A stretch of 13,861 nt of DNA. It comes from Pirellulaceae bacterium. GTDB lineage: Bacteria > Planctomycetota > Planctomycetia > Pirellulales > Pirellulaceae. A program made the position numbers and the translations under genes. Every line of letters begins with the position of its first letter. The stretch's first letter is position 1. Under the pieces are notes generated by a model. It was not told where the DNA came from, searched no databases, and was given only the letters and a program-made list of their open reading frames with translations. Shown in pieces: positions 8,206 to 12,971 of this stretch. Where the stretch lies: positions 1 to 13,861 of the forward strand of contig JADLDX010000377.1 of the NCBI GenBank assembly GCA_020846515.1, read 5' to 3'.

Positions 8206-9282
8206 ATGGCTGAAGGTGGAGATAAAAAACACGAAGCTACGCCCTATCGCCGCCAGAAAGCGCGCGAAGAAGGGCAACTTGCGCGCAGTCAGGACTTGGG
8301 ATCGGCGGTGGTGTTGCTGGGCGCGATCGGAACGTTGATGACCTGGGGGCCGGGCATTCTGGAGTTTCTGGCCGGCTTTATGGTGCGCAGTCTGACAGGC
8401 CATGATTTTTGGGACAATTCCACCGATCGGTCAGTGGCTTGGGTTGCGGGAACATTTTGGGGTTGCTTGATGGTACTGCTACCATTGTTTATGGCAGCGA
8501 TGGCCATTGCCTGGTTAGCCAGTTGGGTGCAAATTGGTTTCTTGTTTCTGCCAGGCAAATTGCAACTGAATTGGTCTCATGTGAATCCGCTCAGCGGATT
8601 GCAACGCATTTTTTCGATTCGCAATGTAACGCGAGTAGCCTTCGGCATAGCAAAGATCATGTTGGTTGCGGCCGTTGCCAGCATCGGCCTCTGGGGACGC
8701 TGGGGGATCATCATGAATTCGTCCAGCCTGGATGCCGGTGAAGTTGGTCAGTTGGTTTGGACGACGACGATCGATATGTGTTTTCGTACTGCGCTGGTGT
8801 TGCTGATCCTGGCGGTGTTCGATTACGGATTTCAACGTTGGCGTCATGAAGAAGACCTCAAGATGACCGACGAAGAGGTGCGAGAAGAAATGAAGATGAT
8901 GAACGGTGACCCGCAAATTGCGGCACGACGCAAAGCGGTTCATCGTCAGTTGTTGGCCAATCGCATGGTCTCGTCGATTCCCAAAGCTGACGTCGTGATC
9001 ACCAACCCGACCGAGTTAGCAATTGCCATCCAGTTTGATCCCAAAACGATGCCAGCGCCTGTTGTTGTGGCCAAAGGATCGGGCAGCGTGGCGGCTCGCA
9101 TTCGTAAGATTGCACTGGAGCATGGCGTGCCGGTACTGGAGCGAAAGCCGCTTGCGCAGGCACTGTTTAAATCGGTTGAAGTCGGACAGATCATTCCGCT
9201 GGAGCAATACAACGCGGTGGCCGAAGTACTGCGGTACGTCTATCAATTGCAGGGCAAGAAGCTGCCGGATGTCGCGGCCTAA
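8206..9282 (+). CDS. flhB: Flagellar export apparatus protein FlhB with NPTE site
   Basis: A 358-residue protein with the FlhB layout. The N-terminus KKHEATPYRRQKAREEGQLA is characteristic. Four membrane helices lie between about 33 and 213, with the NPLSGLQRIFS loop at 127-137, followed by a cytoplasmic domain with GDPQIAARRKAVHR (234-247). FlhB sets export specificity by cutting itself at the NPTH motif between Asn and Pro. Here the motif is N267-P268-T269-E270: the Asn-Pro bond is kept but His is replaced by Glu. The C-terminus (ERKPLAQALF, VEVGQIIPLEQYNAVAEVL) is typical. No Shine-Dalgarno is visible before the ATG, which directly follows a heptamer repeat. The call is firm; the effect of NPTE is inference. 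Confidence 0.96.
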   Translation: MAEGGDKKHEATPYRRQKAREEGQLARSQDLGSAVVLLGAIGTLMTWGPGILEFLAGFMVRSLTGHDFWDNSTDRSVAWVAGTFWGCLMVLLPLFMAAMAIAWLASWVQIGFLFLPGKLQLNWSHVNPLSGLQRIFSIRNVTRVAFGIAKIMLVAAVASIGLWGRWGIIMNSSSLDAGEVGQLVWTTTIDMCFRTALVLLILAVFDYGFQRWRHEEDLKMTDEEVREEMKMMNGDPQIAARRKAVHRQLLANRMVSSIPKADVVITNPTELAIAIQFDPKTMPAPVVVAKGSGSVAARIRKIALEHGVPVLERKPLAQALFKSVEVGQIIPLEQYNAVAEVLRYVYQLQGKKLPDVAA

Positions 9283-9310
9283 GGGCGCTTAAGCTCAATA
9301 CCGTTCAAAC

Positions 9311-9438
9311 GGAAGCGGTGCAGCGCAAGCTGCCCGGTTCTTCGCCTTTTCAAATGGAAGCGGAGCAGCGCAAGCTGCCCAGTGTTTCGCCGAGAAAATA
9401 TAGGCCGAACCGGGCGACTCGCGCCGATTCCGCTTTCA
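9311..9438. repeat. Palindromic GNRA-hairpin repeat cluster, three copies
   Basis: Copies 1 (9311-9340) and 2 (9356-9385) are direct, 45 bp apart, each with the core GCAGC-GCAA-GCTGC (9320-9333 and 9365-9378) flanked by GGAAGCGG on the left and CCGG or CCAG on the right. Copy 3 (9407-9438) is inverted; its minus-strand core is CGGC-GCGA-GTCG, a stem with one G-U pair and a GCGA loop, with GAAAGCGG on its left. The cluster lies between flhB and the MFS gene, together with a small hairpin GGCTA-TCAT-TAGCC at 9503-9516. The remainder of the 282-base spacer has no convincing gene or promoter. The cluster belongs to the same family as 11041-11270. Confidence 0.85.
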
Positions 9439-9564
9439 GTCGATCAATGGTCCGTGAAACGGCCAACCTGCGAAGTCGATACTGTCGCCGGGCTGGGACT
9501 TTGGCTATCATTAGCCTGCTGATTCTTGCCGCTTCTCCCCTCCTACCCCAGATGCTGATCCATT

Positions 9565-11022
9565 ATGAGTTCATCGGACGCCTATAGTTCACCCGCAGGG
9601 TCAGGTGGCCCAGCAGAATCCACTCCTACGTCCTGGTGGCAGCACTTGACCAGTTACCACTGGTTCGTGTTCTCCATGGCCGCCTTGGCCTGGCTGTTTG
9701 ACTGCTTTGACCAGCAGATTTTCATCTTGTTTCGCGATAGTGCGCTCAGTCAATTGAAGTTACCCGAAGGGGCCAACGTCAAGGCTTACGGCGGCTATGC
9801 CACGTCGATCTTTGTGGCCGGCTGGGCGACGGGAGGACTGATCTTTGGTTCGGTAGGTGATCGGATTGGCCGAGCCAAGACGTTGACGATTACGGTGTTG
9901 TTGTATTCGTTGTTTACTGGCCTGTCGGCACTGGCCGTGTCATGGGTGGATTTTGCCATCTATCGATTTATCACCGGATTGGGCGTAGGTGGTGTGTTCG
10001 GATTGGCGGTCGCTCTGATTGCCGATACGCTGCCCGATAAGGCTCGACCTGGTGCGCTCGGAATGTTGCAAGCCCTGTCAGCTTTGGGAAATATTTCCGC
10101 TGGCTTGGTTAGCATGCTGATGGCCAACTTGATTACCAATAAAGTGGTGGCTCCCGAAGGCGCCTGGCGTTACGCATTTTTGATTGGCGCTATCCCAGCC
10201 TTTCTGTGCGTGTTCATTCAGTTTCGATTGAAGGAACCGGAAAAATGGGTCAAGGCGCGTGCGGCCGGGAAGCTGAGCGGAGTAAAGTTCGGGTCGTACG
10301 CAGAACTTTTGGGCGCCGGACGCTGGCGCCGACCAGCCCTGTTGGGCATGATGCTGTCGATCACGGGTGTAGTTGGTTTGTGGGGCATCGGGTTCTTCTC
10401 TCCCGAACTGGTCAGCGAAGTTATCAAGACCTCGCTCAAGGCCAAAGGTGTTGGCGAAACGGAAATCGCCAGCCAGGCGGCCTTCTATCGCGGTTTGAAT
10501 GGGATCATCCAAAATGCGGGCGCTTTCGCGGGTATGTTGGCCTTCTCCTTTCTAACCCAGCGAACCAGTCGTCGCTTTGCGTTCATGATTGCTTTCATTG
10601 GCGCCCTGGCATCGACGGTCATGTTCTTCAGAATGTTTGATAGCATGGACAAGATGTGGATGAGTGCCGTGATGGGCTTCTTCCAACTGGCCCTGTTTGC
10701 TGGTTTCGCCATCTATTTACCGGAACTCTTTCCGACTCGCCTGCGCAGTACCGGCACCAGCTTTTGCTACAACGTGGGCCGTTTCTTGGCCGCCACCGGA
10801 CCGTTTACCTTGGGCAAGTTGCAGCAGATGTTGGGTGAAAAGGCGGTGGCTGGGATCGCCAAAGAAGATGTGGTAGCACAAGCAGCAGCCAGGTTAGAGG
10901 CCTTCCGCGAAGCTGCCCAGTGGATGAGCTTGATCTTCGTGTTGGGGTTGGTCGTCGTCTACTTCATACCAGAGACGCAAGGCAAACCGATGCCCGAAGA
11001 CAGCGATACACCCGGTCAATAG
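9565..11022 (+). CDS. MFS transporter (metabolite or sugar symporter type)
   Basis: A 485-residue inner-membrane protein with about twelve hydrophobic segments. The MFS motif A between helices 2 and 3 is GSVGDRIGRAKT (95-106), and a helix 4-5 region GLGVGGVFGLAVALIADTLP follows. The second half has LPELFPTRLRSTGTSFCYNV (385-404), and the C-terminus PETQGKPMPED (469-479) is close to the PETKG-type ending of sugar porters. Aspartates D46 and D49 lie in helix 1 (LFDCFDQQ), as in proton-coupled metabolite symporters. The substrate is unknown, with sugar acids, aromatic acids or other small carboxylates all possible. The gene has no flagellar role known to me. It is bracketed by palindromic repeat clusters within a flagellar locus and has no visible Shine-Dalgarno; only a pyrimidine-rich stretch precedes it. 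Confidence 0.88.
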   Translation: MSSSDAYSSPAGSGGPAESTPTSWWQHLTSYHWFVFSMAALAWLFDCFDQQIFILFRDSALSQLKLPEGANVKAYGGYATSIFVAGWATGGLIFGSVGDRIGRAKTLTITVLLYSLFTGLSALAVSWVDFAIYRFITGLGVGGVFGLAVALIADTLPDKARPGALGMLQALSALGNISAGLVSMLMANLITNKVVAPEGAWRYAFLIGAIPAFLCVFIQFRLKEPEKWVKARAAGKLSGVKFGSYAELLGAGRWRRPALLGMMLSITGVVGLWGIGFFSPELVSEVIKTSLKAKGVGETEIASQAAFYRGLNGIIQNAGAFAGMLAFSFLTQRTSRRFAFMIAFIGALASTVMFFRMFDSMDKMWMSAVMGFFQLALFAGFAIYLPELFPTRLRSTGTSFCYNVGRFLAATGPFTLGKLQQMLGEKAVAGIAKEDVVAQAAARLEAFREAAQWMSLIFVLGLVVVYFIPETQGKPMPEDSDTPGQ

Positions 11023-11040
11023 CCGCACCCATGCAATTGT

Positions 11041-11116
11041 AAGCGGAGCAGCGCAAGCTGCCCGGTGTTTCACCATGCAATTGAAAGCGGAGCAGCGCAA
11101 GCTGCCCGGTGTTTCA
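11041..11116 (+). repeat. Palindromic GNRA-hairpin repeat, two direct copies
   Basis: Two nearly identical units start at 11041 and 11085, a period of 44 bp. Each has AAGCGGA, then GCAGC-GCAA-GCTGC (11048-11061 and 11092-11105), then CCGGTGTTTCAC. The stem can be extended by three more pairs (CGG with CCG) around one bulged A. They follow the MFS stop by 18 bases and face the inverted copies at 11133-11270. Confidence 0.9.
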
Positions 11117-11132
11117 CAATATAAATAATGGC

Positions 11133-11270
11133 GGAACCGGACGGCTTGCGCCGGTACCGCTACCATTGGCAGTGGGAACCGGACGGCTTGCGCCGGTACC
11201 GCTTTCATTGGCAGTGGGAACCGGACGGCTTGCGCCGGTAGCGCTACAATGCACGGACAGCTCGCGCCGA
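11133..11270 (-). repeat. Palindromic GNRA-hairpin repeat, three inverted copies plus a degenerate fourth
   Basis: Units start at 11133, 11175 and 11217, an exact 42-bp period, with cores at 11142-11153, 11184-11195 and 11226-11237. On the minus strand the core reads CGGC-GCAA-GCCG, so the stem differs from the direct copies (GCAGC/GCTGC) yet still pairs. A fourth, degenerate copy has core 11258-11269, reading CGGC-GCGA-GCTG on the minus strand. Linkers between the units are also conserved (for example CATTGGCAGTGG), unlike CRISPR spacers. Open frames through this array are probably repeat-derived and not genes. Confidence 0.88.
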
Positions 11271-11325
11271 TTCTGGAGAAATCGGCCTACGAAATTTCGC
11301 CTGAATTTAGTACATATACCCAATT

Positions 11326-11330
11326 GAGGA
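11326..11330 (+). promoter_or_regulatory. Shine-Dalgarno GAGGA deciding the GTG start of the FliG-like gene
   Basis: GAGGA ends nine bases before the GTG at 11340. It is the best ribosome binding site in the region and supports the non-ATG start. Confidence 0.6.
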
Positions 11331-11339
11331 ACTGGGTTT

Positions 11340-12971
11340 GTGGGCGAGGTTGGACAAACGAGCAGGGATGCGGTGAATCGGATGGCTGGCGGCGAAGTGG
11401 TGAATACGGACGGTCTGAACGCCCAAGTGCGGCGCATAGCCATCTTGGTGACTAGTCTCGATGCGACCGCCGGCCGGCAATTGCTGATGGCCATGCCCAG
11501 CGAGTTGGCTCGACAAGTCCGCCGCGCCATGACGCAACTGACCAGCATCGATCCCGAAGAACAACGCCAAATTCTGGCCGAGTTTCGTCTGCAAGCCATG
11601 ACGGCCAACCAGGCCGCCCGTCACGGCTCTCCAAACCATGACACATCGCGCACTGACACATCGCGGAACGACCATATAGAGAGCGACACAGCACGCAGCG
11701 ACACCGTACGCAGCGATGCCCATGATCACCAGCGGGATACCCGGCCATCGGCGATGGCACCGCATTATCAACCGTCCGACTCGACGCGTCATACTAGATC
11801 CGGTCGCGACCGTTGGGACGATTCGAATGACCAGGTGGATGAAGGCGACGCGTTTCGGGCTCACACCGCCCCGCCCCGCGATCCATCGCGTTCACATGCA
11901 AGTAACACGTCATCGGTTGCGGATCCCCACAGACCGTGGCAGCGACTGGATGTGGCGGCACTGACGGACTTGTTGCGTGGCGAGCGCGCCTTGGTGATCG
12001 CAGTGGTGATCAGTCAACTGGAGCCCAGACAGGCGGCTGGATTGCTGGAGCAATTGCCACGAACTCAACAGCGTGATGTCATCGCCAATCTATCCAAGCT
12101 TGGTCAGATCGATCCCGAGGCGATGGCGGCGATCGATGATCATCTAGCGCTGCGCATCTCTGACTACCAGCATCGTCGCGACAGCGAGACTGAATCACTC
12201 GGTCGCATCCAGGATTTGTTGGCCGCCGCCTCGCCCGAGATGCGCGGTGATTGGCAGACCATCATTCAAGAAACCGATCAGCAGTTGGCCCATCGCTTGG
12301 GCTTGCCGCCGGCTCACGTTCGAAGCGCAGGCGTACCGGTCCGAGGTTGGGTTCAAGAAGCCAATCGCGCTGTTGCTCCAACCAGAGAATCGCAGTCTGA
12401 AAAGACTGGGCAGGCTAGCCGCGCGATGAACCAGGCAGCGATGAACCAGTCAGCGATGAACCAGCCAGCGATGAACCAGCCAGCGATGGGCCGGGCGCGC
12501 ATGGCTGATTTGCTGGCCAACAATGTGCTCACGACGGCGGATGCCAACTTGCCTCCTGTGGGCATGGATTCATTGTCTCATGTGGTCTCCAGCGATTCTC
12601 AAGACGATTCGCCGGTGGTATTGCCCTTCCCTGGCGTCTCATCCAGACCGGTGCATACCGAACGAAACGATCTAATGCGTTTTGAGCAGATTCTGGATTT
12701 GCCAGCCGATCAGATTGGTCAGGTACTGGCAGCAGCCGATAGCGAAGTTGTGTTGCTCGCTCTGGCCGGTGCGTCGCCTGCCTTTATGAAACGCTTCACA
12801 TCCATGCTCGAGAAACACGATGCGCGCGCTCTGCAGGTTCGGCTGCGACAACTGCGATCGATCAACTTGCAAGATGTCGATGAAGCTCAACGTCGACTGT
12901 GTGAATTGGCTTCACAGCTAGTAATGGAAACTCGAGCCGCCCAGTCCAGTTTGCTAAATGTAGCTGCATAA
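11340..12971 (+). CDS. fliG: Divergent FliG-like flagellar motor switch protein
   Basis: A 543-residue protein with three segments resembling FliG, which is normally about 330-350 residues. Segment 1 (26-86, QVRRIAILVTSLDATAGRQL) matches the FliF-binding N-domain. Segment 2 (201-321, LEPRQAAGLLEQLPRTQQRD) matches the middle domain. Segment 3 (446-530, RFEQILDLPADQIGQVLAAA, later DVDEAQRRLCELA) matches the C-domain facing the stator. A His/Asp/Arg/Ser-rich disordered insert (about 90-200) separates the first two, and a second linker (322-443) holds AMNQ pentapeptide repeats. The middle-domain EHPQT motif reads ERALV. By hand alignment the E. coli torque residues K264, R281, D288, D289 and R297 appear as A, K, V, R and N. 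It lies before fliH/fliI, the usual fliG position, but with no adjacent fliF. It may be a diverged second FliG, so the symbol is tentative. Confidence 0.68.
   Translation: MGEVGQTSRDAVNRMAGGEVVNTDGLNAQVRRIAILVTSLDATAGRQLLMAMPSELARQVRRAMTQLTSIDPEEQRQILAEFRLQAMTANQAARHGSPNHDTSRTDTSRNDHIESDTARSDTVRSDAHDHQRDTRPSAMAPHYQPSDSTRHTRSGRDRWDDSNDQVDEGDAFRAHTAPPRDPSRSHASNTSSVADPHRPWQRLDVAALTDLLRGERALVIAVVISQLEPRQAAGLLEQLPRTQQRDVIANLSKLGQIDPEAMAAIDDHLALRISDYQHRRDSETESLGRIQDLLAAASPEMRGDWQTIIQETDQQLAHRLGLPPAHVRSAGVPVRGWVQEANRAVAPTRESQSEKTGQASRAMNQAAMNQSAMNQPAMNQPAMGRARMADLLANNVLTTADANLPPVGMDSLSHVVSSDSQDDSPVVLPFPGVSSRPVHTERNDLMRFEQILDLPADQIGQVLAAADSEVVLLALAGASPAFMKRFTSMLEKHDARALQVRLRQLRSINLQDVDEAQRRLCELASQLVMETRAAQSSLLNVAA
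12423..12482 (+). repeat. 15-bp in-frame tandem repeat inside the FliG-like gene
   Basis: Four full units, GCGATGAACCAG followed by GCA, TCA, CCA and CCA, then a partial fifth at 12483-12488. They encode AMNQA, AMNQS, AMNQP, AMNQP in the linker at about residues 362-381. In-frame 15-bp units let copy number change without breaking the frame. Confidence 0.9.

Follow-up and report, generated by a model that had tools for sequence, protein, structure and literature searches.

The window analysed here, the whole stretch of 13,861 nucleotides of contig JADLDX010000377.1 from a Pirellulaceae bacterium (assembly GCA_020846515.1), holds nine copies of a short hairpin repeat. They lie in two intergenic gaps, 9283-9564 (cluster 1) and 11023-11339 (cluster 2), which are flanked by co-directional genes. 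The explanation that we favour, with good confidence, is that the copies are non-autonomous repetitive extragenic palindrome (REP) units and REP doublets forming hairpins (REPINs), linked to a REP-associated tyrosine transposase (RAYT) and partly carried in a mini-transposon with terminal inverted repeats (TIRs) and a target-site duplication. The original prediction had claimed nine copies with defined stems and loops, occurring in both orientations and in tandem units of 42, 44 and 45 nt. All of this was confirmed by a check of the sequence and, for the copies themselves, by a covariance model (R1). Four copies were found on the plus strand (starts 9310, 9355, 11038 and 11082) and five on the minus strand (starts 9406, 11133, 11175, 11217 and 11249). 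The features of the window are the following, scores being those of R1:

9310..9341, + strand: REP unit, B type (GCAGC-GCAA-GCTGC), 38.6 bits
9355..9386, + strand: REP unit, B type, left half of the REPIN doublet 9355-9437 (51-nt doublet), 39.8 bits
9406..9437, - strand: REP unit, A type (CGGC-GCGA-GTCG, one G-T pair), right half of the doublet 9355-9437, 33.9 bits
11038..11069, + strand: REP unit, B type, 45.5 bits
11082..11113, + strand: REP unit, B type, left half of the REPIN doublet 11082-11164 (51-nt doublet), 46.0 bits
11133..11164, - strand: REP unit, A type (CGGC-GCAA-GCCG), right half of the doublet 11082-11164, 42.7 bits
11175..11206, - strand: REP unit, A type, tandem copy (42-nt period, tandem repeat family), 42.7 bits
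11217..11248, - strand: REP unit, A type, tandem copy, 39.9 bits
11249..11280, - strand: degenerate REP unit (CGGC-GCGA-GCTG), 22.4 bits (E 0.0007), compared with 33.9-46.0 bits for the other eight
9296..9308, + strand: left TIR CAATACCGTTCAA of a shell resembling a miniature inverted-repeat transposable element (MITE), cluster 1, from the end-pattern search
8206..9282, + strand: FlhB-like gene upstream of cluster 1 (open reading frame (ORF), named by eye)
9565..11022, + strand: membrane transporter-like gene between both clusters (ORF, resembling the major facilitator superfamily by eye)

Aligned to each other, the nine copies formed two subtypes of one unit, in which AGCGG is followed by one or two unpaired bases, then by a 5-bp stem closed with a GCRA loop, and finally by CCGGT. 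The typical A type reads AGCGG-WA-YCGGC-GCRA-GCCGT-CCGGT and the B type AGCGG-W-GCAGC-GCAA-GCTGC-CCGGT, and the stems of the two differ by a compensated G-C to A-T change. Stem types seen in the family include ACGGC/GCCGT, GCGGC/GCCGC, GCAGC/GCTGC and AGGGC/GCCCT. The outer AGCGG and CCGGT varied little, and folds of two units indicated that CGG/CCG pairing is possible between them, leaving a bulge of one or two bases; according to the available text of PMC8266576, the REP transposase of Escherichia coli requires a bulge. A conserved GTAG or CGTC tetranucleotide at the foot of the hairpin was not found. Instead the foot was mostly CGGA and thus of the CnGA type, with AGCGGA in 75 of 121 units, mostly from other genomes, and AGCGGA or GCGGAA in 76 of 116 units of the own genome; most of the others carried CGGT or CGGC.

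Further copies were found throughout the genome. R1, built on 53 copies after 4 chance hits of 57 had been removed, gave at least 169 matches at E<=1 (best E 8e-10) and 158 at E<=0.001. All copy numbers are lower bounds because only the best candidates per genome were scored, here 150 of 4544 first-look candidates. A strict pattern, AGCGGNNNNNGCGCAAGC, occurred 24 times in the 6.48-Mb draft and its reversed control 3 times, and together with the model matches this places the repeat beyond chance. The scan of related planctomycetes proposed earlier showed that 40 of 149 Pirellulaceae genomes, from 25 of 68 genera, hold a match at E<=0.001. Their distribution is patchy: among the six congeners listed, three had no match and three had 1-3 matches. 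Phylum-wide, matches at E<=1e-4 occurred in 4 of 392 genomes, of which two are outside Pirellulaceae, in an insensitive search with 18 candidates scored per genome. The surroundings were determined for 44 clusters of the own genome, which came from stretches selected for strong matches and are not a random draw (one duplicate place was removed). With admittedly crude ORF calls, the flanking ORFs were co-directional for 19 clusters, convergent for 13 and divergent for 7; 3 clusters lay at contig edges and 2 in ORFs. Hence 42 of the 44, including those at contig edges, were outside called ORFs, and of the remaining two one was within the RAYT gene and one at an ambiguous ORF start.

That changes in the stem keep the pairing, as had been predicted from the nine copies alone, was supported by covariation. 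The own-genome alignment comprised 133 rows including repeats from overlapping loci. Among its 82 distinct copies, 47 cells had both partners of a pair changed, against 10.1 (sd 3.1) in the shuffles. The covariation score was 0.288 (shuffles 0.143); none of 500 shuffles reached it, and versions of the alignment slid out of register gave at most 0.102. A corresponding result was obtained with 108 distinct copies from 25 loci of other genomes, with 97.7% of the stem cells paired, 58 double-changed cells (shuffles 13.7, sd 12.8) and a score of 0.280 (shuffles 0.141), again reached by none of 500 shuffles and by slid versions only up to 0.103. The loop was predicted to vary within GNRA, and this was largely so: 83 of the 133 own-genome rows had GCAA and 40 had GCGA. 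However, GCCA (4 rows) and a few other loops also occurred, so that the loop is not strictly GNRA. Over two alignments, in which some places were entered twice, GCAA or GCGA was present in 269 of 283 rows. The first alignment from other genomes left out 24 of 174 matches and contained some places twice; the counts of doublets, TIRs and covariation given here use the complete set.

In the own genome the units were arranged as inverted doublets. A head-in doublet was present in 42 of the 44 clusters; 45 neighbouring pairs were head-in and 3 tail-to-tail, and 27 of the 45 head-in pairs were exactly 51 nt apart. As judged from the sequences, the local hairpin of each unit is kept by the changes from A to B, while a long hairpin between an A and an inverted B unit would oppose G to T and C to A.

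The original prediction had named REP/RAYT elements as the nearest concept and a Y1-type transposase with matching flanks as the partner to look for. The search for such a gene was successful, and with the further copies and the covariation the REP/RAYT concept held. All seven genes found of one divergent RAYT/Y1 clade had R1 units on both sides, whereas 99 other Y1 loci (97 places, two entered twice) had no flanking R1 repeat. The members of the clade have a predicted IS200/TnpA-REP fold and match the Pfam profile, as expected of Y1 transposases of the HUH type. In 100 aligned homologues H87 and H89 of the HuH motif, here NHCH, were invariant and C88 nearly so, as were invariantly Y154 and Q159 of the Y....Q motif; the NHVH motif listed for Class 3 REPtrons was thus absent from the clade. 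Weaker paralogues in L169, L171, L175 and L218 carry NHVH. With the NCBIfam model NF047646 (REP-associated tyrosine transposase) the clade scored 21.5, 18.3 and 17.0 bits, far below the cut-off of 80. The tree left out 9 of 25 loci, in which the search pattern gave no full ORF. We concluded that this clade is likely the cognate transposase of the repeat. The RAYT of the own genome is an ORF of 230 amino acids at contig C466. Relative to its counterparts in genomes G029 and G096 it has an extra in-frame stretch of units of the same family, so units insert, or were copied, even into the gene of the likely mover.

Other Y1 genes were considered as partners and rejected. C184 and C334, the Y1 genes first found in the genome, have no R1 unit, nor do the weaker paralogues of the clade (16 loci), four of which were inspected and adjoin other repeats. 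Beside the RAYT-like gene of C184 (L025, about 1050-2100) lies a GTAG-tagged REP family, GTAGGCCGGAAC..GTTCCGGC, and this canonical-looking REPtron is unrelated to the R1 repeat. The NHVH-carrying, Class 3-like genes of L175, L169 and L218, from relatives, each adjoin their own distinct repeat array with spacings of 173-185, 94 and 92-186 nt, respectively, which suggests many cognate pairs.

A feature that had not been foreseen in the original prediction is the shell around many of the doublets. When 25 of the 51-nt doublets were aligned, conservation extended in many of them to inverted ends, CAATACCGTTC. The end pattern occurred 64 times in the genome, compared with once for the control. Allowing up to 2 mismatches, 13 of the 44 own clusters had both ends, 13 had one and 18 had none. 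Shelled elements were 122-180 bp long and their target was TTAA-like. Nine of the 13 elements with both ends were flanked by a 10-bp target duplication with at most 1 mismatch (six perfect and three with 1 mismatch, whereas the other four elements had 3). In the control, in which different elements were compared, the 10 bp matched perfectly in 0 of 156 comparisons and with one mismatch in 2. According to the available text of PMC2817692, IS200/IS605 elements have no TIRs and make no larger target duplication, which points to a different, probably DDE-type, transposase acting on the CAATACCGTTC ends. In other genomes (37 clusters in the 25 loci) no cluster had both ends and a single one-sided match was seen, at up to 2 mismatches. 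In the window, cluster 1 has the left end at 9296-9308 and no clear right end, and looks like a decayed shell with one end left; no shell end was seen at cluster 2, which is a REP array without a shell.

The same ends also bound a second element of 124 bp. Five full copies were found, with 0, 0, 0, 1 and 7 mismatches in the duplication, among them:

L262 1501-1624: 124-bp shelled element with a GTAG-tagged inverted doublet, 10-bp duplication with 1 mismatch
L266 1558-1681: 124-bp shelled element with a GTAG-tagged inverted doublet, 10-bp duplication with 0 mismatches
L269 1501-1624: 124-bp shelled element with a GTAG-tagged inverted doublet, 10-bp duplication with 0 mismatches

Its interior consists of two inverted hairpins. 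In all 22 unit rows TAG stands before the hairpin (TAGCC in 14, TAGGC in 8), with the full GTAG tag in the rows displayed, and the element is therefore a GTAG-type REPIN. Additionally, a third hairpin array of the GTAG type, GTAGCCACCGCT-GCCA-AGCGGTGG, was seen in both orientations at L294 (G000:C684) 1210-1460, with a shell end at its start and no right end seen. Several shelled elements have another repeat, about AGTACGCCTGCGGCTGACTGTTAA, at their target sites (flanks of L020, L151, L152 and L266).

From these results we propose that one small hairpin element appears to use two movers. Each REP unit would fold on one DNA strand into a bulged hairpin with a GCRA loop, on which a divergent Y1 (HUH) transposase of the RAYT type, with its gene elsewhere in the genome, likely acts. 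This enzyme most likely binds and cuts the single-stranded hairpins during replication, presumably guided by a CGGA-like tetranucleotide on their 5' side, and would copy the units. The shelled copies most likely spread by a putative DDE-type transposase acting on the ends, in which case the REPIN would ride as a passenger in the shell. Since the CAATACCGTTC ends enclose both CGGA-footed and GTAG-tagged REPINs, a DDE transposase could now be spreading hairpins of the single-strand type. Whether REPINs have in this way changed vehicle, at least two unrelated types now being dispersed by the DDE enzyme and the RAYT serving for their birth and local copying, is in our judgement evenly balanced.

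Several observations weigh against this proposal. Two of five covariation measures did not leave the range of the shuffles: the count of doubly changed pairs (3 of 5) and that of further pair types were reached by 82 and 270 of 500 shuffles in the own genome and by 48 and 113 of 500 in other genomes. One slid version of the alignment still paired 78.4% of its cells. Because the copies are related, independent events may be few and the counts inflated. The doublet order was loose in other genomes (25 head-in, 17 tail-to-tail and 53 same-strand neighbours), a head-in pair being present in 15 of the 37 clusters. The 40 R1-positive genomes comprised 7 with the clade, 20 fully scored ones in which no clade RAYT was found and 13 judged from their 24 best candidates. 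Some genomes without the clade were rich in copies (G013 with 59 matches, G109 and G123 with 48 each), so that either copies persist without a clade RAYT or the gene was missed in drafts. The units beside the own RAYT have ACGGC and AGGGC stems and those of the window TCGGC/CCGGC and GCAGC stems, and this mismatch of subfamilies weakens the case that the C466 RAYT itself now moves the window copies. A search of 128 own-genome loci, which with their overlaps amount to 414 kb of the 6.48 Mb, for ends with at most 1 mismatch paired at distances of 200-4500 bp yielded no autonomous element carrying the TIR. Finally, the draft genome is 80.8% complete and in 1089 contigs.

The strongest alternative is that the hairpins are RNA elements, such as terminators, protectors of mRNA 3' ends or protein sites with a GNRA loop, which are selected on transcripts and have spread incidentally. 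It draws on the position of most clusters downstream of stop codons (the co-directional and convergent gaps given above), on the stability of RNA folds, which reached z -4.2 to -6.8 for both doublets of the window and one other doublet (both strands), and on the loop being almost always GCRA. However, a transcript through an inverted doublet carries one unit in each orientation, Rfam 15 gave no match at E<=1 in 9200-11400, and the window region showed no excess of terminator-like sites (3 found, 2.8 expected). The family is moreover patchy among close relatives, and the repeat sits at one transposase clade. We therefore regard selection on transcripts as an improbable origin, and an RNA function may act as a secondary effect. 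The original prediction had suggested selection or copying at the RNA or single-strand level, and of these the level of single-stranded DNA is better supported, because in this genome the units stand in inverted pairs, the Y1 clade is flanked by them, and neither an Rfam match nor an excess of terminators was found.

It is equally improbable, in our estimate, that the family in this genome is a plain MITE, in which a DDE shell makes all copies, the hairpins are mere interior and there is no link to a RAYT. It would fit such an origin that 26 of the 44 clusters have a TIR on at least one side and that 9 of the 13 with both carry clean 10-bp duplications. But of the 18 clusters without a TIR 16 hold head-in doublets, the clusters of other genomes are practically free of the ends, units flank the RAYT in seven genomes, and the same TIR also encloses the unrelated GTAG-tagged doublet. 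Short GC-rich palindromes can arise by chance or from composition in GC-rich intergenic DNA, and the folds of two single units surpassed those of shuffled sequences by only about 3 sd. A chance origin of the family is nevertheless refuted by the copy number, the E values of the matches and the covariation speaking against it as well, and we consider its probability negligible. RAYT-linked REP and REPIN elements, in part within a shell, thus account best for the observations.

REPs, REPINs, RAYTs and Class 3 REPtrons with a CnGA foot are already described in the available texts of PMC3116915 and PMC6006769. The present system resembles the Class 3 TnpA-Y1 REPtrons of PMC6006769, as far as its available text describes them, in its occurrence in Planctomycetes, the Y----Q motif, a W followed by a T, the high copy number, and atypical hairpins that flank the gene and have a CnGA foot, here mostly CGGA. 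It differs from them in having NHCH, where NHVH is listed, and in a foot that is often CGGT or CGGC; the doublet order and the TIR shell are not among the Class 3 features described in that text. The repeat family can be placed near Class 3 as a new case. With the REPINs and RAYTs in the available text of PMC3116915 it shares extragenic inverted REP doublets in high copy number and clusters beside a RAYT, but the conserved GTAG/CGTC tag is absent, the A/B doublets are asymmetric, and the RAYT stays far under the NCBIfam cut-off given above. Like the GTAG/CGTC-tagged REPs in the available text of PMC3733652, which lists R. baltica as host of several REP families, the units are short palindromes whose subfamilies differ by complementary stem changes. 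Here, however, the foot is CGGA-like, and GTAG overlaps the start of the unit in only some copies, e.g. 11133-11164. As in bacterial MITEs, as far as the available sources describe them, the shelled elements are about 123 bp long, lack coding capacity, and have TIRs and a target-site duplication; unlike in these, the interior is a REPIN, and two unrelated REPIN types share the ends. In open-licence literature we found no report of REPINs enclosed in MITEs or of two REPIN kinds in one set of TIR and duplication ends, and no literature on Rhodopirellula baltica together with 'repetitive extragenic'.

Regarding the neighbouring genes, the three best-named relatives of the FlhB-like protein belong to metagenome-assembled genomes of Pirellulaceae (60-62% identity), and in the relatives of the FlhB region (L027-L032) no R1 copy was found at E<=1. 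Plasmid records searched with cluster 1 gave no match. The ORF 11340-12971, downstream of cluster 2, contains a 15-nt tandem repeat, GCGATGAACCAGNCA, at window positions 12423-12497.

With this repeat, a poorly known REP system of the Class 3-like kind without a GTAG foot gains a defined substrate and, in seven genomes, a likely partner, so that recognition can be tested directly. REPINs within elements that have TIRs and target-site duplications bear on the dispersal of REPINs where RAYTs, which according to the available text of PMC3116915 appear unable to move themselves, seem immobile. If true, the two-mover hybrid would explain how REPINs can multiply or be retained where it is doubtful that a RAYT functions.
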